Virus record (IMG/VR): IMGVR_UViG_3300034104_005687
Span: 62,001 to 126,000 of that record
DNA length: 64,000 nt
From: a virus
Strand: one strand, 5' to 3'
This document shows positions 3,007 to 61,331 of this stretch, piece after piece. Every line of letters begins with the position of its first letter. The stretch's first letter is position 1. The notes under the pieces are model-generated. The model did not search any database, had not been told where the DNA came from, and was given only the letters and a program-made list of their open reading frames with translations. The position numbers and the translations under genes were made by a program.

Positions 3007-3927
3007 ATGTCAGAACCCTTGGTCAAAACACCAGCCAAAGTCAACTATCTCAACAACAGAGATATCCTCAAAGAAATTCATCTCAGCAAAAAAACCTATT
3101 GCAGCTACAGAGATCCTGTGACTGATCATCAGTACGATATCATACTGCCCAGTGTTGACAAGATCAATCAGCGCACAGTGGCCGAGGCCCGCAGAAATCG
3201 TGCCGACCGTATCAAACGCGAAACAGGGGAAATTGTAGACCCTACCAAAATTCCCAACACAGACATAGTGTTTAGAATTACCTGCTGGGAACACATTCCG
3301 CTGGCACCCAAGAAAGTGCCCAAAAATGCTACCAAGCGCAAGAAGCTAGAAGACATCCTGGACCTGGATGAAGTAGCAGTGGATCCTCTGGAGGATCTTG
3401 TGGAAGAGCCTGTGCTGGATCCCACACATGTGCGACTGAACTTTCCGCCGTTTTATCACTATCGCATCGACGAAAACAAGGTACCGTTTGTGGTGGGCAA
3501 GAGTCACTGGAAGGGCGATTTGGAAACGGGCGAGTATTGTCGCGATCACGGCAATATGACACGCAAGCTGGCCACCATGTTTATGAAACTGTGCGAGCGT
3601 TATGCCACAAGGAGCAACTGGCGTGGCTACACATACAATGAAGAAATGCGTGGACAAGCTCTACTACAGCTTAGTCAGATTGGTCTACAGTTCGACGAGA
3701 GCAAGAGCCAGAACCCGTTTGCGTATTACACTGCTGCGATCACTAACAGTTTTACGCGGATTCTCAACATAGAGAAAAAGAACCAAAACATTCGTGACGA
3801 TATCCTGGAAATCAATGGGTTGAACCCAAGCTGGACTCGTCAAAACTCAGGTGCCAAAAGCATGGCTGCCATGTCCGGACCGGTTGTGAGCAGCCTGGAT
3901 GATGTAGTACAATCAGTAGATGAGTAA
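3007..3927 (+). CDS. 55: Late-transcription sigma factor gp55
   Basis: The N-terminal YLNNRDILKEI matches T4 gp55 YVNNKELLQAI, and the C-terminal half (about residues 185-290) carries the sigma region-2-like core: SNWRGYTYNEEMRGQALLQL, FDESKSQNPFAYYTAAITNS, then IEKKNQNIRDDILE. In T4, gp55 binds host RNA polymerase and recognises TATAAATA; matching boxes are abundant in this window. The protein is 306 residues against 185 in T4, because about 120-150 residues (roughly 30-180) are inserted between the two conserved parts. The insert includes an acidic stretch and a PFYHYRID segment. The ATG at 3007 follows an AGGAG site. The end overlaps the gp47 start by 8 bases. Confidence 0.88.
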   Translation: MSEPLVKTPAKVNYLNNRDILKEIHLSKKTYCSYRDPVTDHQYDIILPSVDKINQRTVAEARRNRADRIKRETGEIVDPTKIPNTDIVFRITCWEHIPLAPKKVPKNATKRKKLEDILDLDEVAVDPLEDLVEEPVLDPTHVRLNFPPFYHYRIDENKVPFVVGKSHWKGDLETGEYCRDHGNMTRKLATMFMKLCERYATRSNWRGYTYNEEMRGQALLQLSQIGLQFDESKSQNPFAYYTAAITNSFTRILNIEKKNQNIRDDILEINGLNPSWTRQNSGAKSMAAMSGPVVSSLDDVVQSVDE

Positions 3928-4936
3928 TTTATTTAAAAAAGCCGCAATCTTTACCGACATCCATTTTGGGCTCAAGTCCAACAGTGTTCTACACAACGAA
4001 GACTGTTTGGCTTTTGTGAAGTGGGCCACGGCCAAGGCCCAAGAAGAAGGTTGCGAAACCTGCATGTTTCTGGGCGATTGGCACAACAATCGATCAAGCC
4101 TGAACATAGTCACCCTGAACTACAGTTTGCAGGCCTTGGAGCACATGAACAACAACTTTGAACGTGTGTATTTTATTCCAGGTAATCACGATTTGTACTA
4201 TCGGGATAAACGTGACATTCAAAGTGTAGAATGGGCCAAACACCTACCGCGTGTGGAAATCTGCAATGATTGGTTCAGCAGTGGCGGCGTCACTATTGCT
4301 CCTTGGCTATGCGGTGATGATCACAAACGACTGGCAAAAATGAGCGGTGAATATTTGTTTGGTCACTTTGAACTGCCAGGATACCTGATGAATGCAATGG
4401 TAGAGATGCCAGATCATGGTGAAATACGTCGAGAAGATCTTGGAGGGTTCGGACATGTTTTTACAGGACACTTTCACAAGCGGCAGACCAAAAAGAATAT
4501 TACCTACATCGGCAATGCGTTCCCTCACAATTATGCAGATGCTGGTGATGACGAACGAGGTCTCACTGTGTTGGAGTGGGGATCAGCGCCTGAATTTCAT
4601 GCTTGGCCTGCTCAACCAACGTACCGTGTGTACGGGCTGGCCAACCTTATTGACAACGCTGCGTCGCTGCTTCGACCCAAGATGCATGTCAGAGTTAACC
4701 TAGATATCGAGATCTCATACGAAGAAGCCAACTTTATCAAAGAAACTTTTGTGCGAGACTACAACCTGCGTGAGATGGCGTTGATTCCCAACAAGACTGC
4801 CGGTGTAGACGAAGATATGGCGCCCGGAGAAGTCAAGTTTGAATCAGTGGATCAGATTGTTACAGATCAACTTACCAACATTGAAAGTGAGTTTTACGAT
4901 AACAAGCTCTTGCTGAAGATTTATCAAACACTATGA
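3920..4936 (+). CDS. 47: Recombination nuclease subunit gp47 (Mre11-like)
   Basis: A calcineurin-type metallophosphoesterase of 338 residues, essentially T4 gp47 length (339). Metal-binding motifs appear in order: DIHFG at residues 13-17, GDWHNN near 51, GNHD at about 88-91 and GHFH near 182. With gp46 it forms the Mre11/Rad50-type complex that resects DNA ends for recombination-dependent replication. The gene overlaps gp55 by 8 bases and its stop overlaps the next ATG (ATGA at 4933), so expression is probably coupled. In T4, genes 47 and 46 are also close neighbours; here an SGNH-like gene sits between them. Confidence 0.92.
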   Translation: MSNLFKKAAIFTDIHFGLKSNSVLHNEDCLAFVKWATAKAQEEGCETCMFLGDWHNNRSSLNIVTLNYSLQALEHMNNNFERVYFIPGNHDLYYRDKRDIQSVEWAKHLPRVEICNDWFSSGGVTIAPWLCGDDHKRLAKMSGEYLFGHFELPGYLMNAMVEMPDHGEIRREDLGGFGHVFTGHFHKRQTKKNITYIGNAFPHNYADAGDDERGLTVLEWGSAPEFHAWPAQPTYRVYGLANLIDNAASLLRPKMHVRVNLDIEISYEEANFIKETFVRDYNLREMALIPNKTAGVDEDMAPGEVKFESVDQIVTDQLTNIESEFYDNKLLLKIYQTL

Positions 4937-5649
4937 AATTGTATTTCAACGGATGCAGTCATACCTACGGTGATGATCTTGAAGATCCCAAAAGTAGTGC
5001 ATGGCCATCTGTTGTGTCTTCTGCACTAGGCGCAGATTTTTTGAATGACAGTGTCAGTGGTGGCACCAACGATCGCATAATGTATCGGACCATAAAGCAC
5101 CTAGATCAGTTTGATAAATTCTATATTGCTTGGACTTACACCACTCGATTTACCAGGTATAGAGCAGACAACAACCATGATGTCAACTTCAATCCTCAAT
5201 TGATACACAGGCTTTACAGCAAAGATCCTAACTTTGCAGAATATGGAAAAATACATTATCGGGTCTGGCACAACGAATTGTATGCTGCGAAGTTATGGTT
5301 GCAAAACATTGTGTTGTTGCAACGATTGTTTGAATCAGTCAACAAACCATATGTCATGATCAATACTGCGTCAAATCATCTAGATCGGTGGTTAAGCAGT
5401 TGGCAAGACTTTAATTCTAGTGTACAATCATTGTTGTGTTTTGATCTCATGAATGATCAGCAACTTGAACAAGAACATCTAGAACTACAAAAATTAGCAT
5501 CAATGATTGACACTTCCTGTTTTGTTGGATGGAATCAATGGTGTTTGGCCGACGAGTTAAAAAAATACCCGGTTGGACCAACTGGCCACTTACTGGAACA
5601 AGGACACAAGGCCACAGCCTTGCATATTTTAAAGCATGATTCACATTAA
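4933..5649 (+). CDS. SGNH/GDSL-like hydrolase fold protein
   Basis: 238 residues starting with a short strand and the nucleophile-type motif GCSHTYGDD (residues 7-15), followed by a GGTNDR block near residue 45 and a C-terminal GHLLEQGHKA that could supply the His of an (N/D)xxH motif. These features suit the SGNH esterase/acyltransferase fold; similar proteins occur in marine T4-like phages without a tested function. Starts in an ATGA overlap with gp47 and runs 14 bases into gp46, so it was inserted into the 47-46 pair without breaking coupling. Codons look more A/T-rich than those of its neighbours. Substrate unknown; two further SGNH-like genes lie at 59152 and 60603. Confidence 0.6.
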   Translation: MKLYFNGCSHTYGDDLEDPKSSAWPSVVSSALGADFLNDSVSGGTNDRIMYRTIKHLDQFDKFYIAWTYTTRFTRYRADNNHDVNFNPQLIHRLYSKDPNFAEYGKIHYRVWHNELYAAKLWLQNIVLLQRLFESVNKPYVMINTASNHLDRWLSSWQDFNSSVQSLLCFDLMNDQQLEQEHLELQKLASMIDTSCFVGWNQWCLADELKKYPVGPTGHLLEQGHKATALHILKHDSH

Positions 5650-7717
5650 AAAACTCACTGTCAAAAACTTCATGAGTGTGGGCAATGCCACACAAGGCAT
5701 TGACTTTGATCGCAGGGACTTGACGCTGGTACTAGGCGAGAACCTGGACCTAGGTGGCGACGGCAGTCGCAACGGCACAGGAAAGACCACAATCATCAAT
5801 GCGTTGAGTTACGCCTTGTATGGCAATGCACTGTCAAATATTCGCAAGGACAACCTTGTGAACAAGACCAACGGCAAGAACATGCTGGTAAGTCTGGACT
5901 TCAGTGTGGGCAGTCAGGACTACAGAATTGAACGTGGTCGCAAGCCCAATGTGCTGAAGTTCTATGTGAACCACGAAGCACAAGCTGCCACAGACGAAGC
6001 ACAAGGCGAAAACAAAGAAACGCAGGAAGTGATCGAACGCATCATGAGCATGAGTCACGACATGTTCAAACATGTGTTGGCGTTGAATACCTATACTGAA
6101 CCATTCCTGAGTTTGAAGGCCAATGAGCAACGTGCCATCATTGAGCAGTTGTTGGGCATTACCCTGTTGAGTGAACGAGCCGATCGTGTCAAAGAGTTAA
6201 ATCGACAAACCAAAGATGCGATCTCGCAAGAAGAATTTCGTATACGTGCCGAGCAAGAAGCCAACAAACGCATAGAAGAACAGATCGAAAGCCTGCGTCG
6301 CAGACAAGTGCTATGGCAGAAAAAATACGACAGCGATCTACAGATTCTAGTTGGTCAGTATGACGAACTTTCCAAGATCAACATTGAAGCAGAATTACAA
6401 GCACACCAAGACCTAACTGTATGGAGTGATCGTCGTCGACAACAAGAAGCTCGCAACAGCCTGTCAGCTCGCAGCACAGCCTGGCAACAAAAACACAACA
6501 CCGAAGTCGAAGCCGCAGGTCGTGCATATTCGGACAAGAATCGTATCAGCATTGATATTGAACTAGCAGCATGGGCACAGTTAGCTGCTCACAATCAAAA
6601 ATCTCGAGACATTGCCGAACTTGAAAAACTGATCGCCCGTTGTGTTCAGGACGAGAAGAAAGAAGTCAAGCTGGTAGAAAAACTACGAGCCGAGATTGAA
6701 GAACTCCGAAATCACAAGTGCTATGCATGTGGACAAGACTTTCATGATGTCAGTCACGAGTCAGTGTTGGCTACAAAAGAAAAAACACTACAAGAAGCTG
6801 CCTTACAGGTCTTGGCCACCAACAGTCAATGGATAGAGCACACTAATGCGTTGTTGAAGCTGGGCGAGCTGGGTGTTCCGCCCACAACACATTACACCAC
6901 AGAAGCCGAAGCAATACGTCACTCCACTGAGTTAGATGCGCTTCGTCAAACACTGGAAAATAAAACTACCGAAGTCAACCCTTATGCTGATCAACTGGCA
7001 GAAATGCCCGAAGTGGATCCTGGTCAGCAACCAGTTACCCACTACGACACCGAAGCAAAAGCTATCAAACACAGCAGCCAAGTTGCTAGTTTGCTGACAC
7101 AGATCACAAACAAGCATGCCGAAACTGATCCCTATGGTGAACAGATTGCTGATATGCAGACCAAGGCTCTGCAAACTGTGAGCTACGATCACCTCAACGA
7201 GCTGACCCGAGTACAGGATCATCAAGACTTCTTGCTGAAACTGTTGACTTCCAAAGACAGCTTTGTTCGCAAAAAAATCATTGATCAAAATCTCAGTTAT
7301 CTCAACAGCAGACTTACCCACTATCTGGATCGTATGGGCTTGCCGCACACTGTGAAATTCATGAATGATTTGTCGGTAAATATCGAAGAACTAGGTCGTG
7401 AACTGGACTTTGACAATCTGTCAAGAGGCGAGCGTACCCGATTAATTCTCAGCATGAGCTGGGCATTCCGTGATGTATGGGAAAGCCTTTATCACCCCAT
7501 CAACTTGCTGTTCATTGACGAACTGATCGACAATGGTTTAGACACATCTGGCGTAGAAAACGCCTTGGGTCTACTGAAACGCATGAGCCGCGAACGCAAC
7601 AAGAGTGTTTGGCTTGTGAGTCACAGAGACGAGTTGGCCGGACGAGTTGAGAACATACTCAGAGTGGTCAAAGAAAATGGCTTTACCAGCTATAATACAG
7701 ACATAGAGCATGCATAA
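5636..7717 (+). CDS. 46: Recombination nuclease subunit gp46 (Rad50-like ATPase)
   Basis: An SMC/Rad50-type ATPase: Walker A GSRNGTGKT (residues 43-51), two long coiled-coil arms, a zinc hook CYAC at 362-365 between them, an ABC signature SRGERTRL near 595, and Walker B LLFIDEL near 625. At 693 residues it is longer than T4 gp46 (560), the extra length being in the arms; the second arm contains two similar segments (THYTTEAEAIRHS and THYDTEAKAIKHS), suggesting an internal duplication. It partners gp47 in DNA-end processing. The ATG at 5636 lies inside the end of the SGNH gene. Confidence 0.93.
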   Translation: MIHIKKLTVKNFMSVGNATQGIDFDRRDLTLVLGENLDLGGDGSRNGTGKTTIINALSYALYGNALSNIRKDNLVNKTNGKNMLVSLDFSVGSQDYRIERGRKPNVLKFYVNHEAQAATDEAQGENKETQEVIERIMSMSHDMFKHVLALNTYTEPFLSLKANEQRAIIEQLLGITLLSERADRVKELNRQTKDAISQEEFRIRAEQEANKRIEEQIESLRRRQVLWQKKYDSDLQILVGQYDELSKINIEAELQAHQDLTVWSDRRRQQEARNSLSARSTAWQQKHNTEVEAAGRAYSDKNRISIDIELAAWAQLAAHNQKSRDIAELEKLIARCVQDEKKEVKLVEKLRAEIEELRNHKCYACGQDFHDVSHESVLATKEKTLQEAALQVLATNSQWIEHTNALLKLGELGVPPTTHYTTEAEAIRHSTELDALRQTLENKTTEVNPYADQLAEMPEVDPGQQPVTHYDTEAKAIKHSSQVASLLTQITNKHAETDPYGEQIADMQTKALQTVSYDHLNELTRVQDHQDFLLKLLTSKDSFVRKKIIDQNLSYLNSRLTHYLDRMGLPHTVKFMNDLSVNIEELGRELDFDNLSRGERTRLILSMSWAFRDVWESLYHPINLLFIDELIDNGLDTSGVENALGLLKRMSRERNKSVWLVSHRDELAGRVENILRVVKENGFTSYNTDIEHA

Positions 7718-7727
7718 GGAATAATCA

Positions 7728-8117
7728 GTGCTGTTGACCGTTGAGCATTCTAATTTGACTATGATACGTTTTGAAATCAATGGATCAGTGGTTGAGCACT
7801 ATCAACAACAACAAGAATATTGTGTTGATATAAACTGCAACGGCAATGTAGAAATATTCTTTGAACCATGGAAAATCAAACCATTGGTCAGAGTTGACAA
7901 TCATCTGTTGGATTACTGGTGCGCTGATATGCAATTGTACGATCACATGGTTAGACTTAAATGGGATTCAGGGTTCTATCATCGGTACCAAGAAAAAATT
8001 GTGCAGGGAAAAATAGATTACTTGAATCTAACAACACAAGAAGATATTGATTATTATTTGGGCATAAAAAATTCAAATCTAGATTTAGTTAGCCAACTCA
8101 AACAGTATTTAAAATGA
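7728..8117 (+). CDS. Small protein of unknown function, first gene of accessory operon
   Basis: 129 residues if read from a GTG at 7728, which has an AAGGA ribosome site 7 bases upstream that overlaps the gp46 stop; the first ATG (7761) has no such site, so GTG is preferred. The sequence is rich in aromatic residues and beta-like, with KPLVRVDNHLLDYWCADMQL and a C-terminal helix. I do not recognise the family. Its stop overlaps the start of the B12-type radical SAM gene (ATGA at 8114), which implies a shared role with the four enzymes downstream, perhaps as a binding or carrier subunit; that is inference only. Confidence 0.65.
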   Translation: MLLTVEHSNLTMIRFEINGSVVEHYQQQQEYCVDINCNGNVEIFFEPWKIKPLVRVDNHLLDYWCADMQLYDHMVRLKWDSGFYHRYQEKIVQGKIDYLNLTTQEDIDYYLGIKNSNLDLVSQLKQYLK

Positions 8118-9619
8118 GCCGAGTATTATTAGTTAACCTCCCCATGTACGACACATTGGCACCTCCCGGAGCATTGGCAGTTTTGGCAGCAATCTGCGAA
8201 CAAAATCAAAAGGCTTACGAGTTTTTAGACTTTAATATTTTTTTGCACCGCACACTCAACGAAAAAGAACTTGCTGAACTCAGTGATTGGTTGGTAGGTA
8301 TCACCATTGACTACCATGGTATCTCTGAAGAACTCAGACAAAAGGTGTTTGATCTATGGTGCGAGCAAATCAACAAAATAGATCCTGACAGTTTTGAATT
8401 CATTGGTATCAGTATTTTTAGTATGTGGAGTCTCAGGATGGCACAATTAATTTTGCCATGGCTGAGAAAAAGAACTTTATCCAAAATTGTATTGGGCGGC
8501 AACGGATGCAACAGTAAATTTTTTGATACAAAAATTGGCTTTTCTAGCTGGGTTGTTGAAAACCAATTGGCTGATTTTGTAGTGATCGGCGACGGTGAGC
8601 CCACGTTTGATGCCATACTCAAAGGCGAAACTTGTGTGCCCGGAGTTAATCAAGTACCTCAGAAAAACGACTGGGACATTGATCAATTCCCGATCCCCAA
8701 CTACAAAAACTTTGATCTGTCTTTGTATAGTGCAAAAAAAGTGTATGTTACCGGAAGTCGTGGATGTGTAAGAAACTGTACGTTTTGCGACATTGGTGCG
8801 ACTTGGCCTAAATTTCGATTCAGAAAAGCTGATAAGTTGGTAGAAGAAATCAAACAACATTACTATGATCTTGGGGTCACAGAATTTGATTTTACAGACA
8901 GTTTGATCAATGGTAGCATCAGTAACTTCTATCAATTCAACTGTTTGCTAGCTGAGGAAAAAGTCAAAAATCCTGATCTCAAAAATGTCAGCTACATTGG
9001 ACAATTTATTTGCAGACCCCAGTCTCAAATGTCTGCCTCACACTACGAAGCCATGTACTATGCAGGATGCAAGCAGGTTACCATTGGTATTGAAAGCTTT
9101 AGTGAAAATGTTCGATACCACATGCGTAAAAAATTTACCAATCTTGATATTGATTATCACATCGACCAATGCAGTAGATGGAATATCAAAAATGTTTGGT
9201 TGATGATTTGCGGGTACCCTACTGAGACATTGCAAGATCATGTTGAAAACTTAAACAGTTTAGAAAAATACTCCCTGTATGCCAAACAAGGAATAATCGA
9301 ACTAATTCGATGGGGAACTACCATGCACCTTATCGACGACACACCAATAACCAGTGCTGAGATGCTCAAGGATTTGGATATTGTATTGGATGCTCAAGGC
9401 AGCCTGGGATTTACCAGCACTTACAATTGGGTAAGTTCCAAGAATCCGTCTCTAGACCTTGCAGAGCGCATACGTCGGCGAGTTGAAATTCACGAACATT
9501 GTGTCAAGAATGGGTATCCTCAGCCAAGGGTCCGCCAAGAACTCAGCAGTTTGCTGACGCTGGCAAAGCAACACCTTGTGGGCCCAAGAAAAAAAATATT
9601 CGAGATTGGCCAGCTATGA
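8114..9619 (+). CDS. B12-binding-type radical SAM protein
   Basis: 501 residues. The N-terminal ~170 residues have the Rossmann-like layout of cobalamin-binding radical SAM enzymes (VLLVNLPMYDT, APPGALAVLAAICE, GGNGCNSKF, VIGDGEPTFDAIL), but the cobalamin-ligating DxHxxG motif is not visible. The radical SAM core begins at GSRGCVRNCTFCDIG, with the iron-sulfur cysteines at 218, 222 and 225 (CxxxCxxC), then conserved FTDSLING and TIGIESFSE segments. Enzymes of this class methylate or rearrange unactivated carbons in lipids, peptides or sugars. It is linked by ATGA overlaps to the genes on both sides. Substrate unknown. Confidence 0.85.
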   Translation: MSRVLLVNLPMYDTLAPPGALAVLAAICEQNQKAYEFLDFNIFLHRTLNEKELAELSDWLVGITIDYHGISEELRQKVFDLWCEQINKIDPDSFEFIGISIFSMWSLRMAQLILPWLRKRTLSKIVLGGNGCNSKFFDTKIGFSSWVVENQLADFVVIGDGEPTFDAILKGETCVPGVNQVPQKNDWDIDQFPIPNYKNFDLSLYSAKKVYVTGSRGCVRNCTFCDIGATWPKFRFRKADKLVEEIKQHYYDLGVTEFDFTDSLINGSISNFYQFNCLLAEEKVKNPDLKNVSYIGQFICRPQSQMSASHYEAMYYAGCKQVTIGIESFSENVRYHMRKKFTNLDIDYHIDQCSRWNIKNVWLMICGYPTETLQDHVENLNSLEKYSLYAKQGIIELIRWGTTMHLIDDTPITSAEMLKDLDIVLDAQGSLGFTSTYNWVSSKNPSLDLAERIRRRVEIHEHCVKNGYPQPRVRQELSSLLTLAKQHLVGPRKKIFEIGQL

Positions 9620-10218
9620 AAATATTCTTAACCGGTGCATCAAGCGGCATTGGTGCTGCTTTGTTTGAAACTTTGTCAGTGGACCATCAAGTAATTGCAC
9701 CCAACCGTAACACATTTGATCTAACCAATACAAAACATATCGATGACTTAGATGTCGACTTTGACATGTTGATAAATTGTGCTGGTACCGGACTAGGCGG
9801 AAAACAACAGTTTGCAAATCATTGCAGCAACGATGTTGTTGAAATTTTCAATACCAATTTGCTTGCGCCAATTTTACTAACCAAAAACGTATTAAAAATC
9901 AATCCAGCATGTAAAATAGTCAACATTACCAGTACCAACAACAATCGGTATTGGCCAGGAGATTTAGTATACAGCCTGACCAAATCTTCATTGTCTATAT
10001 TTGGAGACATGCTTCGTGTCGAGTATCCTGATTGTTGTTTGCTAGAGATTAGATTGGGATTAACTAAAACCAATTTCAACAAAGCAAGATACAAGAACAC
10101 ACCTGATCGATATCAGGACATTTACAACAATCCGCATTTGCTTCCAGAAAATGTAGCAAACAAAATTGTCAGTGTGTTGTTTGACAATACAGTAAAATAC
10201 ATAGAAATTTCTCCTTGA
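9616..10218 (+). CDS. Short-chain dehydrogenase/reductase
   Basis: 200 residues from the ATG at 9616, which forms an ATGA overlap with the radical SAM stop; a longer reading from 9499 would run antisense to sense through that gene and is not needed. The Rossmann motif TGASSGIG is at residues 6-13, NCAG (NAG-type) near 53-56, the catalytic Ser in ITST, and the Tyr/Lys pair YSLTK at 119-123. It should oxidise or reduce a hydroxyl/carbonyl with NAD(P). At 200 residues it is short for the family (usually about 250), lacking much of the C-terminal substrate cap. The SDR probably acts on the product of the adjacent radical SAM enzymes. Confidence 0.87.
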   Translation: MKIFLTGASSGIGAALFETLSVDHQVIAPNRNTFDLTNTKHIDDLDVDFDMLINCAGTGLGGKQQFANHCSNDVVEIFNTNLLAPILLTKNVLKINPACKIVNITSTNNNRYWPGDLVYSLTKSSLSIFGDMLRVEYPDCCLLEIRLGLTKTNFNKARYKNTPDRYQDIYNNPHLLPENVANKIVSVLFDNTVKYIEISP

Positions 10219-11312
10219 TGTATCCTTGGCAACTTTATCATTGGCATTTTGAAGTCAGTGGCAAATGCACACTGAAGTGTCCTCGGTGTCCTCGAAATGA
10301 TGCCAGCCCTGTACCGTGGTTAAACAAAGAACTGGATTTGAATTTTTTCAAAAAAATTCTAACTCCTGATCTACTTAAAAACACAGTCCAACGTATCACA
10401 ATGTGTGGTGACATTGGAGATCCAATCTATGCCAGTGAATACATCGAGATCGTAGACTACATCAAATCACATAATCCCAAAATACATGTGTATACCATCA
10501 CCAATGGCAGCTATAGAAAAGCTGATTGGTGGCAAGATTTTGCCAAAGTCAGTAACGAGTATGACACTATTAATTTTAGTATCGACGGGTACGATAATGA
10601 GTCAAACAATCTATACAGAGTTGGCAGCAACTGGGACAGTATCATGCAAGGCATGGATATCATGTGCCAACATAGTTCTGCATTTGTGTACTGGGCCACT
10701 ATTTTGTTTAAGTTCAATCAGGCCCACATTGATAGCATACGAGCCCAAGCACAAAACGCCGGGTGCGATGGATTACAACTTACGTACAGTACAAAATTTG
10801 GCAGCAAGTACGGAGAAGCATACGGTGGAGTCCATGACCCGCTTGAACCTGATCTAGAGTTTATAAGCAAAACTCATCGATATGAAAGATACTTTGAACA
10901 GCTCTCTGACAGACAACAGCTGAACCAATCTTATCTAGCTCATAATCAGCAACGTTTTATAGAAATCAAACAGCAGCATCAACAAATGATAACTCCCATG
11001 TGCAGCATTGGAAATCGAGGAATATACGTCAGTGCCGACGGAATACTGCATCCATGTAGTTGGGTCAGCTATCCATACCACAGTATCAGCACAGATCGAA
11101 AAACTATACATTTTAAAGATAGTTTTCATCAGATACATAGAAGCAAGTTGGATTTGAAATCTAGGTCACTGGATCAGGTCCTGAATGACCCAGTTTGGTC
11201 CAAACTGTTTGATACATTCGACAATCAAGGCAAAGCCTGGGTTGAATGTGAACAAAAATGCCATTGTAATTTAGTTGATCAGAACTATGCTGTAGGTTAT
11301 CTTACCAATTGA
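10218..11312 (+). CDS. Radical SAM protein with SPASM-like C-terminus
   Basis: 364 residues from the ATG at 10218, which shares its A with the SDR stop (TGATG). The iron-sulfur motif CTLKCPRC gives cysteines at 17, 21 and 24. GDIGDP and FSIDGYDNES are standard core strand motifs. The C-terminal part holds further cysteines (MCSIGNRG, ILHPCSW, CEQKCHC) in the manner of SPASM/twitch domains that bind auxiliary iron-sulfur clusters, often in peptide-modifying or sugar-modifying enzymes. It overlaps or abuts its neighbours and so belongs to the same operon as the B12-type radical SAM gene. Substrate not evident. Confidence 0.85.
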   Translation: MYPWQLYHWHFEVSGKCTLKCPRCPRNDASPVPWLNKELDLNFFKKILTPDLLKNTVQRITMCGDIGDPIYASEYIEIVDYIKSHNPKIHVYTITNGSYRKADWWQDFAKVSNEYDTINFSIDGYDNESNNLYRVGSNWDSIMQGMDIMCQHSSAFVYWATILFKFNQAHIDSIRAQAQNAGCDGLQLTYSTKFGSKYGEAYGGVHDPLEPDLEFISKTHRYERYFEQLSDRQQLNQSYLAHNQQRFIEIKQQHQQMITPMCSIGNRGIYVSADGILHPCSWVSYPYHSISTDRKTIHFKDSFHQIHRSKLDLKSRSLDQVLNDPVWSKLFDTFDNQGKAWVECEQKCHCNLVDQNYAVGYLTN

Positions 11313-11314
11313 CT

Positions 11315-11953
11315 ATGAATACCTTGAAAGAAATAATTGAGATTGAAAATTTTTTAACTGCTATTGAGCTTGAACAAGTAAACGCAGCAGTTGAAAAATG
11401 GCAAATGGTTCCTTATTATTCCAACGGTGGAAGATTTACCAAAGGTAGTTTAATTGCCAATCAGGCCATACAGCCATGGGATCAATCTGATCAAGCTGTC
11501 AGCATCATAAAACCAAAATTAGACAATCTGCTCGGCGAATATCGTGTGTCTGAACTGGTGCTTCAAGAATTATCTTTGCCCTGGGATGTTCACACTGATT
11601 ATGTTAGATCCAGCAATGTTGGGCGCCCTTATTATTCGGTCATTATTGCATTGAGCAATTGCGACAGTCGTACGATACTGTTTGATCAAACTGCCGAACA
11701 CAACGATTTTTATAAGTTCAAACAGACCAATAAAAAAACAACAAATCCAGTGGATCAAAACTTTTGGCAAAACAACCTAAGCCATTGTTGGGATGAAGAC
11801 CGAGAGTATTTGAGTCTTCGATATGTAAGTCGTCCCTGGAAACCTGGTAACTTGTTTTCATTCCAACGAAATGTATTACACTCCAGTGACAATTTTCATA
11901 CCAGAACTTCGTACCCCAAAAGATTTATACAAATATTAACAGACAAAATTTAA
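11315..11953 (+). CDS. 2OG-Fe(II) oxygenase-like protein
   Basis: 212 residues from the ATG at 11315 (a TTG two codons earlier overlaps the previous stop and could also serve). A jelly-roll dioxygenase arrangement is visible: HTD (His93, Asp95) after the strand LPWDV, a distal His189 in NVLHSSDN, and Arg in RTSYPKRF about 10-15 residues later, the usual order HxD...H...R. Such enzymes hydroxylate or desaturate amino-acid, sugar or lipid substrates. It closes the overlapping five-gene accessory operon. The fold call is from motifs only; overall similarity to characterised members is low. Confidence 0.65.
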   Translation: MNTLKEIIEIENFLTAIELEQVNAAVEKWQMVPYYSNGGRFTKGSLIANQAIQPWDQSDQAVSIIKPKLDNLLGEYRVSELVLQELSLPWDVHTDYVRSSNVGRPYYSVIIALSNCDSRTILFDQTAEHNDFYKFKQTNKKTTNPVDQNFWQNNLSHCWDEDREYLSLRYVSRPWKPGNLFSFQRNVLHSSDNFHTRTSYPKRFIQILTDKI

Positions 11954-11986
11954 AAGCAACCTGGCAGCAATCATAAATTATATGCA

Positions 11987-12421
11987 ATGACATGGCTATA
12001 CAACAATCAACCGGTGGAAACTCTCCCAGAAGATTGTGTGGGCTTTGTGTACCTAATCACCAACATCAGAACCGATCGCAAATACATAGGCAAAAAACTA
12101 GCCAAGTTCTCAAAAACAACTCAACGAACAGTCAAACTCAAAAACGGCACCAAGAAGAAAAAAAAGATTCGCACCAAGGTGGACAGCGACTGGCAGGACT
12201 ATTACGGTAGCAGCCCAGAGCTCTCCCGGGATGTTGAATCTCAAGGCAAAGACAACTTCAAACGAGAAATACTTTATTACTGTAAATCTAAATCAGAATG
12301 CAGCTATATCGAAGCAAGAGAACAATTTTCACGACGAGTGCTAGAATCCCAAGACTGGTACAACGGACACATTCAGGTTCGTGTGCACGGCAGTCACATA
12401 ATCAACAAACTACACAGTTAA
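11987..12421 (+). CDS. GIY-YIG-type endonuclease
   Basis: 144 residues. The N-terminal domain has the GIY-YIG signature as VYLIT (residues 21-25) and KYIGKK (32-37), followed by a very basic patch (KNGTKKKKKIRTK) and a YYGSSPELSRDVE segment typical of Seg-like phage nucleases. A Glu in YIEAREQF may be the metal ligand. In T4 such genes (segA-E) are free-standing mobile nucleases, which fits its position between an accessory operon and a non-coding region. There is no clear sign that it interrupts another gene. Confidence 0.72.
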   Translation: MTWLYNNQPVETLPEDCVGFVYLITNIRTDRKYIGKKLAKFSKTTQRTVKLKNGTKKKKKIRTKVDSDWQDYYGSSPELSRDVESQGKDNFKREILYYCKSKSECSYIEAREQFSRRVLESQDWYNGHIQVRVHGSHIINKLHS

Positions 12422-27026: not shown

Positions 27027-27118
27027 TATCTGCAACGCAATCGTGCGTTTTATGCTGTTGTTAACACCCTCAGCGTAGCGGCTAGAACCCGCATCGGACT
27101 TCTTTAAGGAGAAAACAA

Positions 27119-27823
27119 ATGGGTCGTCCTCTAAAAATTAAAAAATCTACTACCAGTGACATCGGTTTCAATCCGTTTAGCGCACTGACCAATCCAATTT
27201 ATCCCAGCGATCCTACCACATTTGATGGTACAGAGTATCTGGGTGTTGTGGGTGGTGCCAATGCTAGCGTAGCTACTGCTGCGTTTCCTGTGGTCAAATG
27301 CCGTGCATTTATTGTAGGCACAGCATCTGAAGCTGATGCATACATCATCACACAAAAAGGCACTACCAAGTATCAAGTGGCCACTGTCACAGCGGTCAAC
27401 GACGAAGACATGGTTGTAGGTCAAGCATATCGTATTTTGAGTGTGGGTACCACTGACTGGGCAGCATGCGGAGCCAGCGATTCAAATGCAGCAGTTGGTG
27501 ATGTATTCACTGCAACTGCAGCGGGTGCAGGCACAGGTACTGTGCAAAACGTAGGTACATGTGTGTTGGCCAACGAAGCTGACACAGCACTCACTGTAGG
27601 CAACATGAACATCACATTCAGCACAGGCGACAGTACTGCACAGTTGATCAGCAAGCTGACCAACAAGTTTGCTCTGGACTACAGCACACCCCCGGTTCGT
27701 TATTTGACCAACTTCTTCAGCGACGAAGGCTATGAAGTCAAGTCAGGTACTACAGGTGCTGCCAACGTAAGTGGACAACAAAACCGCGTGAGTTTGGCAA
27801 TTGTAGAGAACTTTACTTCGTAA
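27119..27823 (+). CDS. Virion structural protein, possible decoration protein
   Basis: 234 residues, Gly/Ala/Thr/Val-rich and probably all beta. A module VVGQAYRILSVGTTDWAACG...VGDVFTATAAGAGTGTV (residues ~101-142) is of a kind that recurs in marine phage structural proteins. Strong ribosome site, late promoter upstream and a terminator downstream mark it as a separately transcribed, probably abundant, late protein. In T4 the vertex protein gp24 follows gp23; this protein does not resemble gp24. Capsid decoration or tail role is inferred. Confidence 0.6.
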   Translation: MGRPLKIKKSTTSDIGFNPFSALTNPIYPSDPTTFDGTEYLGVVGGANASVATAAFPVVKCRAFIVGTASEADAYIITQKGTTKYQVATVTAVNDEDMVVGQAYRILSVGTTDWAACGASDSNAAVGDVFTATAAGAGTGTVQNVGTCVLANEADTALTVGNMNITFSTGDSTAQLISKLTNKFALDYSTPPVRYLTNFFSDEGYEVKSGTTGAANVSGQQNRVSLAIVENFTS

Positions 27824-58183: not shown

Positions 58184-59152
58184 ATGACCATGCTGCTCAT
58201 TGACGAGAATCCAGACGATCCTCGTCGCCTTGTACACAATGTTGAATTTTACATCACAAATGTCTGTAACTTGAATTGTTTCAATTGCAATCGTTTCAAC
58301 AATCACGAGTTCAAAGGATACCAAAAGTGGAGCGACTATCAAAGTATCTACGAAAAATGGGCTCAGCACATAAAGCTACAACGAGTTACTATCCTTGGCG
58401 GCGAGCCTTTGTTGAATCCAACAATTCTAGATTGGATTGATGGTATCAATCGACTGTGGAATGTTTCAACACAGATTCTGACCAATGGCACCCGCTTAAA
58501 CAGCGTCAAAGGGTTGTACAATCGATTGGTCAACCCAGTCAACCCCAACAAGCTTGGGATCAAAAATTGGATAGGTGTAAGTTTGCACAATCGCAATGAC
58601 CTTGATCGTTGTTTTGATGAAGTAAAGAAATTTTTACACGGTGACGTTAGGTACTATCATCACAGTGACCCAGCCAATGTTAATAACGCAATGACCTTTG
58701 GTGCTACACATGCATTCGTTGACAGCAATGACGTGAGGATACCAATTTGGGAGTATGATAGTTTTTATCGTGCCTCGGTGTACTTGAACGCCAACGGAAA
58801 ATTTACACTGCACAACAGTGATCCTGAATTGGCGCACAAAGGCTGCGGTTTTGCCATGTTTAAATGTTATCATTTTATACATGGTGCATTGTATAAATGC
58901 GGGCCAGTGGCATTGTTTCCTGAGTTTGATGCCCAACACCAGCTTGACATATCCGACCAAGATCGACACTTGATCAACAGTTATAAGCCGTTGCAGGTTG
59001 ATGAGTATGTTGAACGTGGTGCCACGTTCCTTCACAAAATTGATCAAACAATTCCGCAGTGTAAATTTTGCCCTGAATTCATGCACGATGAAAAAAACAC
59101 TGCAATATTTGCCACACTAAAAAAAGCAGGTAGCACCAGTGGATTTGAATAA
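58184..59152 (+). CDS. Radical SAM protein
   Basis: 322 residues. The cluster motif CNLNCFNC gives cysteines at 28, 32 and 35; VTILGGEPLLNP is the GGEP SAM-binding strand and QILTNGTRL a core strand. C-terminal cysteines (CGFAMFKC, YKCGPVA, CKFCPEF) could bind a second cluster as in SPASM proteins. It overlaps the SGNH gene (stop/start at 59152) to form a two-gene unit, so the pair may act together on one substrate. No close similarity to the 10218 radical SAM protein beyond family motifs. Confidence 0.85.
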   Translation: MTMLLIDENPDDPRRLVHNVEFYITNVCNLNCFNCNRFNNHEFKGYQKWSDYQSIYEKWAQHIKLQRVTILGGEPLLNPTILDWIDGINRLWNVSTQILTNGTRLNSVKGLYNRLVNPVNPNKLGIKNWIGVSLHNRNDLDRCFDEVKKFLHGDVRYYHHSDPANVNNAMTFGATHAFVDSNDVRIPIWEYDSFYRASVYLNANGKFTLHNSDPELAHKGCGFAMFKCYHFIHGALYKCGPVALFPEFDAQHQLDISDQDRHLINSYKPLQVDEYVERGATFLHKIDQTIPQCKFCPEFMHDEKNTAIFATLKKAGSTSGFE

Positions 59153-59817
59153 TGACACAGGTATTGGTAACCTTTGGAGACAGTTGGCCTCAAGGAGTTG
59201 AATTAGAACCAAACGTTCCTCGTTATGGGGAAATACTGTGCCAGCAGTTGGGGTTTGACCAGTTTTATAACTACGGACAAGGCGGTACCAGCAACGAGCA
59301 CATGATTTTGCAGTTACAAAATTACTTGCAACAGCAATGGGACCCGGATCACCGTGTTGTTGCTGTGTTTTTTCTAACCAATCCCCACCGTACATTTTAT
59401 TTTCCAACAGACGCTGGATTCAACATTCACGGTCCCGAAAGGCAAAATTGGAACAAAGAAGCCAGGGAAGTTTTTGCAAAAAATTATTTACATTTTTATT
59501 CTGACGATGTTGCTGTCATGAGAAACAGTCTTGCAATAACAGCACTGCAACAGTGGTGTAAACTGCACAACATCAGCGATTACTATTTCTCAGGATGGGT
59601 AAAATATACTCACTGGCTGCCCATGGTTGATACTGATAAAATTTGGGCCGGCGGGCAGGAAACAGCCGGCGATTGGTTTGGTGCATCGGCGCACAACGGC
59701 GAGCACCTGATCAATATTGAAAACAACCCTTACATACGTCCTAATTTTGCACATCCTAATCAGTTGGGGCACGAATTAATTGCCAACAAGCTAGCACATT
59801 GGATACGCAATAAATAA
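59152..59817 (+). CDS. SGNH-like hydrolase
   Basis: 221 residues. Nucleophile motif FGDSWPQG (residues 8-15), a GQGGTSNEH block, an FLTNPHRTFYF strand near 80, and HPNQLGHE at the end giving the catalytic-type His. This is the clearest SGNH protein in the window. Overlaps the radical SAM gene by one base. Such enzymes deacylate or acylate sugars and lipids; a role in trimming or modifying glycans is plausible but not shown. It ends within a late promoter that serves gp13. Confidence 0.75.
   Translation: MTQVLVTFGDSWPQGVELEPNVPRYGEILCQQLGFDQFYNYGQGGTSNEHMILQLQNYLQQQWDPDHRVVAVFFLTNPHRTFYFPTDAGFNIHGPERQNWNKEAREVFAKNYLHFYSDDVAVMRNSLAITALQQWCKLHNISDYYFSGWVKYTHWLPMVDTDKIWAGGQETAGDWFGASAHNGEHLINIENNPYIRPNFAHPNQLGHELIANKLAHWIRNK
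59809..59816 (+). promoter_or_regulatory. Late promoter (AATAAATA) for gp13
   Basis: Overlaps the SGNH stop codon (59815-59817). Predicted start near 59822; leader about 14 nt with AAGG before the ATG at 59836. Confidence 0.6.
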
Positions 59818-59835: not shown

Positions 59836-60603
59836 ATGGAACAGCAACAAGATACCCTAACTACTCTAAAACAAAATCTTATTGATTATGTACAACTTCA
59901 GCTGGGCTCGCAAATTGTTGACATTGAGCTAGATCCCGAACACTACGAAGCCGCTTATCAAAAAACAATTGGCACATACCGTCAACGTGCACAAAATGCC
60001 TATGAAGAAAGCTATATCTTCATGCGATTGGTCAAGGATGAAAACATCTATCAGTTGCCGCAAGAAGTTATCAGTGTACGGCAAATTTTTCGAAGAACTT
60101 TTGGCGATGCCACTGGTCCTTATGCATCTAACTTTGACCCGTTTAGCCAGGCCAGTTTGAACGTTTATTTGATGAACTTCAACGTGGCAGGTGGACTTGC
60201 TACCTATGATTTCTACAGTCAGTATGTTGAACTTGCAGCACGTATGTTTGGCGGCTACATGAACTACACATACAATCCAGTGACCAAAAAACTACAGCTG
60301 ATCCGTGACCCCAAAGCCACTGGCGAAGCTGTGTTGATTTGGACCTACAACCTCAAGCCTGAAATTACCTTGCTCAGTGACTATCAGATCCAGCAATGGA
60401 TCAAGGACTACATGGTGGCCAACGCCAAATTGATCATTGGTGAAGCTCGTGAAAAGTTTGCCAGCATTGCTGGTCCACAAGGTGGAACCAGTCTCAATGG
60501 TGCAGCCATGAAATCAGAAGGCCAAGCGGCCATAGACAAACTGCTGGAAGATCTCAAAAACTATGTAGACGGGAGCCAGCCACTTACTTGGGTAATTGGC
60601 TGA
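59836..60603 (+). CDS. 13: Neck/head-completion protein gp13
   Basis: 255 residues (T4 gp13: 309). The N-terminal DYVQLQLGSQIVDIELDPEH followed by YEAAYQKTIGTYRQRAQNAY matches the pattern of gp13, in which a short helix, a beta element with DI(E/N)(L/V)D and a helix (ALxYY-like) precede the rest. ENIYQLPQEVISVRQIFRR follows, with an Asn-Tyr/Trp middle and KPEITLLSDYQIQQWIKDYM. gp13 with gp14 seals the portal after packaging. gp14 is 3.5 kb away on the other strand, unlike T4 where they adjoin. Confidence 0.75.
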   Translation: MEQQQDTLTTLKQNLIDYVQLQLGSQIVDIELDPEHYEAAYQKTIGTYRQRAQNAYEESYIFMRLVKDENIYQLPQEVISVRQIFRRTFGDATGPYASNFDPFSQASLNVYLMNFNVAGGLATYDFYSQYVELAARMFGGYMNYTYNPVTKKLQLIRDPKATGEAVLIWTYNLKPEITLLSDYQIQQWIKDYMVANAKLIIGEAREKFASIAGPQGGTSLNGAAMKSEGQAAIDKLLEDLKNYVDGSQPLTWVIG

Positions 60604-61331
60604 TGAGCAAAACACTGCTGGTAGGTTGCAGTTTTGTGGACAGATTGAATTATAGACTAAACAATGACGACTATCATGTTGACTCTAAAAAATATCAAGT
60701 GCTGTCGTCACCAGGGTCAGGTAACCAGGCTATAGCAGCTAGAACAATCTATCAACTCAGTCAAGACACCTACGATAAAGTAGTTGTGGTGTGGTCTGGC
60801 ATTAACCGCCTGGATTTCCCTATCAGCCAAGAACTACACAAAACTTATCCTCCCAATGGCAAAGATTCTTGGGCAGCAAGTTGCCCAGTGGGCAGCATGT
60901 CCTGGTATCATTCAGGCGGCATCTGTGGGTCAGGCACAAGCGAGTCAGGCACCCCAGAGTCCTTGAGACAATTTTTTCGTACCCAGTATCTAGGCGCAGA
61001 ATCAGGCAGCACTTACCTAACAGAAATGACACTGTTGAGCATAATTTCGTGCCAGGCTGTGTTGGAAAAATCAGGTGTACCTTATCAAATGGCATTTATA
61101 TACGATACTCAGCGCAGTATTCCTCAAGAAACTGAAGAACATTCGCATGGAATTATGGATACCGCATCACCGTTGTACTCCATGGTTGACTGGAAAAAAT
61201 TTACCAGATTTGACGCTCCTTATGAATGGGCCAAACAACACAACCGGTTGGAAACTGATGGTTATCATCCTACTCGAAATGCCATGATTGACTGGCTCAA
61301 GTTAGCCATGAACATTGACCTTCAGTCATAA
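60603..61331 (+). CDS. SGNH-like protein, third copy
   Basis: 242 residues from the ATG at 60603, sharing bases with the gp13 stop (TGATG). Contains GCSFVDRL (residues 8-15), GSGNQAIAARTIYQ and VVVWSGINRLDFP, then near the end DGYHPTRNAM, consistent with SGNH blocks I-III and V. About 20 residues longer than the 59152 protein; the two are clearly diverged. It may decorate or process a virion component, given its coupling to a neck gene. Confidence 0.68.
   Translation: MSKTLLVGCSFVDRLNYRLNNDDYHVDSKKYQVLSSPGSGNQAIAARTIYQLSQDTYDKVVVVWSGINRLDFPISQELHKTYPPNGKDSWAASCPVGSMSWYHSGGICGSGTSESGTPESLRQFFRTQYLGAESGSTYLTEMTLLSIISCQAVLEKSGVPYQMAFIYDTQRSIPQETEEHSHGIMDTASPLYSMVDWKKFTRFDAPYEWAKQHNRLETDGYHPTRNAMIDWLKLAMNIDLQS

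Follow-up and report, generated by a model that had tools for sequence, protein, structure and literature searches.

The stretch of DNA analysed here (the window, 64,000 nucleotides) corresponds to positions 62001-126000 of IMG/VR record IMGVR_UViG_3300034104_005687, which comprises 349,369 bases from an uncultured phage. On its plus strand, genes for gp47 (SbcD-like, 3920..4936) and gp46 (SbcC-like, 5636..7717), whose products are 48% and 43% identical to the SbcD-like and SbcC-like proteins of Pseudomonas phage Paride, enclose a gene for an SGNH-like protein (DUF6071, 4933..5649; PF19547, 8e-8). Downstream of gp46, on the same strand, lie five open reading frames: bsA1 (7728..8117, GTG start, 129 aa), the gene for radical SAM enzyme B (8114..9619, 501 aa; PF04055, 3.1e-14), that for short-chain dehydrogenase/reductase (SDR) C (9616..10218, 200 aa; PF00106, 1.4e-15), that for a second radical SAM enzyme, D (10218..11312, 364 aa; PF04055, 6.6e-10), and that for a probable 2OG-Fe(II) oxygenase, E (11315..11953, 212 aa). 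A SegE-like GIY-YIG endonuclease gene (11987..12421; PF19835, 9.2e-34) and a Polynucleobacter-1 RNA (RF01718, 12430..12574; 79 bits, gathering threshold 37), both on the plus strand, follow. As originally predicted, the five genes are coupled: bsA1 starts after a 10-nt gap from gp46, the next junctions are ATGA at 8114, ATGA at 9616 and TGATG at 10216, and 2 nt precede 11315.

The G+C content of the five genes is 34-41%, versus 46.5% for gp46 and 45.5% for gp47, and cargo G+C was below that of gp46 in 108 of 111 related loci (partly redundant), in agreement with the predicted A/T-richness relative to the adjacent genes. The genes are not a chance assembly, as they recur in the same position across 72 distinct loci. 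The dN/dS values of relatives (E left out) were 0.06-0.20, similar to that of gp46 (0.12); the module genes are therefore under purifying selection and probably functional. Searches for promoters and terminators in the surroundings of the module yielded results barely above shuffles. The T4-type late promoter TATAAATA occurs four times in the window (16250, 56348, 62707 and 62764; 1.0 expected, and 1 of 100 shuffles gets to four), with no copy near the module. A freshwater-2 RNA (RF02980, cis-regulatory, 70 bits) was located elsewhere in the phage genome, at window 27033-27121.

Membership of B and D in the radical SAM superfamily was supported by PF04055 scores of 53.9 and 39.9 bits (gathering threshold 29.5) and by the CX3CX2C motif, which is present in B and was found in 65/65 B relatives and 46/46 D relatives. 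The assignment of B to the B12-dependent type is unproven, because its match to the B12-binding domain (PF02310) had an E-value of 0.087 and 13.1 bits against a cut-off of 32.1, and DxHxxG, a motif that is not universal, was found in 0/65 relatives; the best NCBIfam models for B, TIGR04072 being the nearest, describe B12 radical SAM families, but B scored far under the cut-off of each. A clear B12-binding domain is present in a 665-aa radical SAM protein encoded at 316633-318630 of the record. Nor did the SPASM-like label proposed for D hold, since D scored 15.4 bits against PF13186 (cut-off 21.5) and contains four conserved auxiliary cysteines (C-x12-G-x4-C ... C-x3-C) rather than the seven-cysteine pattern. 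This is a twitch-type auxiliary Fe-S site, and the pattern CX9-15GX4C..CX3C was conserved in 45/46 relatives. C carries TGASSGIG and YSLTK, and among the long members of its 48 relatives TGxxxGxG (33/34) and YxxxK (34/34) mark it as a classical SDR. E carries HxD ... H, and HxD/E with a distal H was found in 13/13 relatives, with PhyH profile scores below cut-off (0.052 in the window E, 0.0038 in the relative in locus L097). S100 matches to E in the PDB search were regarded as chance. The catalytic motifs of B, C, D and E are intact and conserved among relatives, and the predicted tailoring-type make-up of the gene set is supported.

Exchangeable modules in a gp46/SegE hotspot

Judged by gp46, the nearest cultured phages are jumbo phages, among them Paride (Arenbergviridae). 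Paride has its virion genes and those for the late sigma factor, gp47, gp46 and the baseplate hub arranged in the same order, but has no counterpart of 4933-5649 (the SGNH-like gene) or 7728-12421 (the five genes and SegE). As the Paride site is empty, the window insert is cargo in a hotspot bordered by gp46 on the left and the SegE-like gene on the right. The SegE-like gene closes the hotspot in 60 of the 72 loci, and a PDDEXK endonuclease takes its place in six; the replacement is of the PDDEXK_15 type in L038, L046, L051, L053 and others. The seg genes of T4 drive exchange by gene conversion, and by analogy the SegE-like endonuclease is a plausible candidate driver of exchange at the hotspot. 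The gp47/gp46 slot in relatives is often occupied by N-twitch radical SAM proteins instead of the SGNH-like protein, and the hotspot slots of relatives also carry genes for AMP-binding, amidinotransferase-like and unassigned enzymes.

The Polynucleobacter-1 RNA at the right edge was also found in the corresponding place in L042, L089 and L116. This RNA was described in 2010 from Burkholderiales and fresh-water or estuary samples (PMC2864571); it may be a phage RNA and gives a hint at the host. Genes resembling those of ABC and tricarboxylate transporters were noted by eye near gp46 in L118, L111 and L033.

The adjoining DNA recombination genes would fit hypermodification of phage DNA, in which modified bases evade restriction and diversification would likewise be favoured; other phages act on thymine with radical SAM and PLP enzymes. 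We consider this very improbable, as the hotspot, which is vacant in Paride, accounts for the gp46 neighbourhood, and PF00303 (thymidylate synthase/dCMP hydroxymethylase) was not found in the 349-kb record, which may be incomplete. Base modification of the T4 type was set aside because PF00303 was not found.

Scans of IMG/VR with B or D as the query yielded over 130 loci on metagenomic contigs, partly redundant, of which 72 distinct ones include gp46. The presence of B or D in these loci is by construction, while bsA, C and E were not queried; 26 of the 72 contained both B and D, 19 B only and 26 D only. The order bsA1-B-C-D-E was found only in contigs of the window's own virus (L004, L016 and L088), and relatives hold parts of it in many combinations, which rules out a single conserved five-gene pathway as first envisaged. 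Instead, the insert combines several modules that are exchangeable.

Module 1 consists of bsA and B: of 73 distinct B genes, 65 have bsA directly upstream, with an overlap in 63 cases, and four of the eight remaining B genes have bsA2 (the second form of bsA, see below) or a bsA2-like gene downstream (in L144 and L146 this is a gene of 184 aa, recognized by eye). Module 2 consists of C and D, as all 46 long D genes are preceded either by an SDR gene (33) or by an ORF of 165-215 aa (13), the one tested being SDR-like. E, regarded as module 3, occurred in 14/45 loci with B and 0/27 without B (Fisher p 6e-4). Partial correlations of distances given gp46 were 0.53 for bsA1-B, 0.90 for bsA2-B and 0.76 for C-D, each reached in 0/1000 permutations, and B distances barely followed those of gp46 (0.07-0.30). 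Since the paired distances correlate beyond the gp46 backbone, the modules travel as units. The later acquisition suggested by the original prediction is accordingly supported by the low G+C content, the empty site in Paride and modules that track each other instead of the gp46 backbone.

The small partner protein bsA

Two sequence types of bsA were distinguished, bsA1 (the window form, 129 aa) and bsA2 (approximately 160-200 aa). Sequence searches with bsA and E in Pfam, PHROGs, NCBIfam and PDB gave nothing usable, and bsA1 belongs to no family in the first three; bsA2 matches in the PDB search were short matches to repeat proteins and were set aside. An alignment of 28 bsA1 members revealed invariant P52, R55 and Y87, and F45, P47, A66, H73 and G112 in at least 90%. 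AlphaFold2 predicted a beta-sandwich followed by C-terminal helices for both types (pLDDT 90.9 for bsA1, 88.0 for bsA2). In Foldseek comparison with the PDB, the only matches of the bsA2 model under 0.001 were 2xhh (E 4.7e-5) and vCBM60 2xfd (E 9.5e-5), both with probability 1.00 and both calcium-dependent carbohydrate-binding modules (CBM) of the 60/36 kind; the predicted structure of the sister form bsA2 thus has a CBM60-like fold. It differs from CBM60 and CBM36 in that no sequence family match is detectable for bsA, in its extra C-terminal helices and in being encoded beside a radical SAM enzyme. For the bsA1 model, 2xfd ranked first (E 0.13, probability 0.94) and 2xhh fourth (E 0.36), neither being significant. 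The B proteins that partner bsA1 make up a single clade of the B tree, nested within a grade of bsA2 partners (support 100/99), as would be expected if bsA1 were a diverged bsA2; no such relationship is seen with sequence profiles (17% probability, C-terminal part only). We infer that the window's bsA1 shares the CBM60-like fold and binds sugar.

Genes of the bsA2 type also precede a 345-365 aa family without a Pfam match (L102, L128 and L132), in which an SxSK-like motif, recognized by eye, suggests a PLP-dependent enzyme; several types of enzyme may have bsA as a general partner.

Precursor-maturase pairs classically have a small gene that overlaps a radical SAM gene and lies directly 5' of it, and this layout, with the co-divergence of bsA and B, would suit protein or peptide modification (RiPP-like or of a virion protein), where bsA would be a substrate or docking partner modified by B, D, C and E. 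This reading appears quite unlikely, given that bsA is a folded beta-sandwich of 129-200 aa, conserved throughout and under purifying selection, without a leader/core pattern, and that the fold of bsA2 matches CBM60 and not a winged-helix RRE. A role as RiPP precursor was set aside for bsA, a folded and conserved domain whose sister form has a CBM-like fold.

Proposed glycan tailoring and its alternatives

Fifteen radical SAM proteins are encoded in the 349-kb record. Four of their genes, at 22-31 kb, are near genes for a carbamoyltransferase and an NDP-sugar epimerase. A second bsA2-B pair of the record, containing a paralogue of the window's B, lies at 147976-150013, directly after a RecA-like gene, and is followed at its 3' side by genes for an N-twitch radical SAM protein (NF033640, 6e-72), a MannoseP-isomerase/cytidylyltransferase fusion and a GT8 protein. 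The site downstream of the RecA-like gene (G000:C1:146924-151983) is conserved in many relatives, with bsA2-B pairs, an 85-aa gene and the N-twitch radical SAM gene. Within the window, 58184-59817 and 60588-61331 contain another radical SAM gene with a GDSL/SGNH-like gene directly after it, and a further SGNH-like gene, noted by eye, among structural genes.

Because the sister form of bsA has a CBM60-like fold and sugar genes lie beside other radical SAM genes of the genome, glycans are favoured as the target, and we place at about an even chance the explanation that the insert consists of mobile modules tailoring glycans during infection, with bsA as a CBM-like specificity subunit. In this scheme, bsA would bind a glycan or sugar acceptor and present it to B, which would modify an unactivated sugar carbon by C-methylation or another radical reaction; E would then possibly hydroxylate or oxidise the product of B. 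D would oxidise, epimerise or dehydrate a sugar carbon, and C would reduce the ketone left by D, with net epimerisation or deoxygenation as the outcome. By swapping modules at the gp46/endonuclease slot, each phage would come to decorate glycans in its own way; those of the host surface are the most likely target (receptor masking, superinfection exclusion), with virion glycans as the alternative. These reaction types are modelled on aminoglycoside biosynthesis, in which radical SAM AprD4 with NADPH reductase AprD3, and the cobalamin radical SAM enzymes GenK and GenD1, act on aminoglycoside sugars (PMC5461906). The precedents share with the scheme proposed for the modules a radical SAM enzyme and an NADPH reductase acting on sugars, or sugar methylation by a cobalamin radical SAM enzyme, but they serve bacterial antibiotics, have no CBM partner and show only distant sequence similarity (the AprD4 model matched B at E 4e-4, far below cut-off).

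Of the targets named in the original prediction, glycans thus gain from the bsA2 fold and the sugar-gene neighbours, and nucleotides are weakened by the missing PF00303. The sugar-related neighbours of radical SAM genes in Campylobacter phage CP220 and the gene combinations of Bdellovibrionota loci, both described below, also speak for the glycan explanation. Counted against glycans are the insignificant bsA1 fold match, the 17% profile probability between bsA1 and bsA2, and the lack of bsA at bacterial homologues (see below); no glycosyltransferase was found in the window module. The AMP-binding and amidinotransferase-like genes in the slots of relatives would also fit a pathway that makes or modifies a soluble metabolite during infection, with bsA as a structural or scavenging subunit, and a glycine amidinotransferase occurs within the radical SAM cluster of Campylobacter phage CP220. 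For soluble metabolites, however, an enzyme would not be expected to have a CBM-like protein as its partner, and the enzyme sets are freely recombined instead of being kept as one route, so that we regard such a pathway as unlikely.

Homologues of B were detected in 9 of 241 bacterial genomes of the phylum of the L167 MAG (titled Bdellovibrionia). In some of these Bdellovibrionota loci, B stands together with D and with genes for N-twitch radical SAM, SDR and 2OG-like proteins, and one also has a carbamoyltransferase-like gene (both partly by eye); bsA was not found near the B homologues, whose neighbours were checked partly by eye. In the B tree, all phage B form one clade, separate from the Bdellovibrionota homologues. 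A D homologue (43%) in L178 lies on a phage-like contig binned as Pacearchaeota, probably by mis-binning.

Relation to known phage systems

The statement that no such phage system had been described was too strong. Campylobacter phages CP220 and CPt10 encode 11 and 12 radical SAM proteins and have an interchangeable five-gene cluster (Timms et al. 2010, PMC2853527), and pelagimyophages carry radical SAM cassettes in a host-recognition cluster (PMC7029224). As the CP220/CPt10 cluster has been described, this kind of system is already known. The points of likeness are a T4-like phage, radical SAM genes numbering about a dozen and, with sugar-transferase-like neighbours, a variable cluster of five of them that was read as an exchangeable module; in CP220, five radical SAM genes adjoin nucleotide-sugar transferases and a PAP2 phosphatase. 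In contrast to the window, the CP220/CPt10 cluster occupies another genome site, no relative of bsA, B or E was found there, the D match was 33% over 49% of its length, and strict bsA-B or SDR-D pairing is not known there. In the pelagimyophage Mosig EXVC030M, radical SAM genes likewise lie in a variable island together with genes for a carbamoyltransferase, a sugar aminotransferase and dioxygenases, but the island is near the tail fibres, D is 27% identical over half its length, and no bsA-B pair was found. B, bsA1, bsA2 and E had no match in cultured phages. The novel elements here are the hotspot, the families of the partner bsA and the modules of two strictly paired genes.

Phage modules rich in radical SAM genes have lacked a function since they became known in 2010, and a partner that is strictly linked to the enzyme and has a fold of the sugar-binding type offers a concrete, testable handle on the substrate of the module. 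We tentatively propose, as a possibility somewhat short of probable, a new architecture in which dedicated CBM60-like subunits, encoded by genes of their own, would direct radical SAM enzymes to polymeric glycans; disseminated as two-gene units among uncultured jumbo phages of aquatic habitats, these would diversify host or virion glycans. The hotspot provides dozens of natural combinations in which to look for new glycan-modifying radical enzymes.
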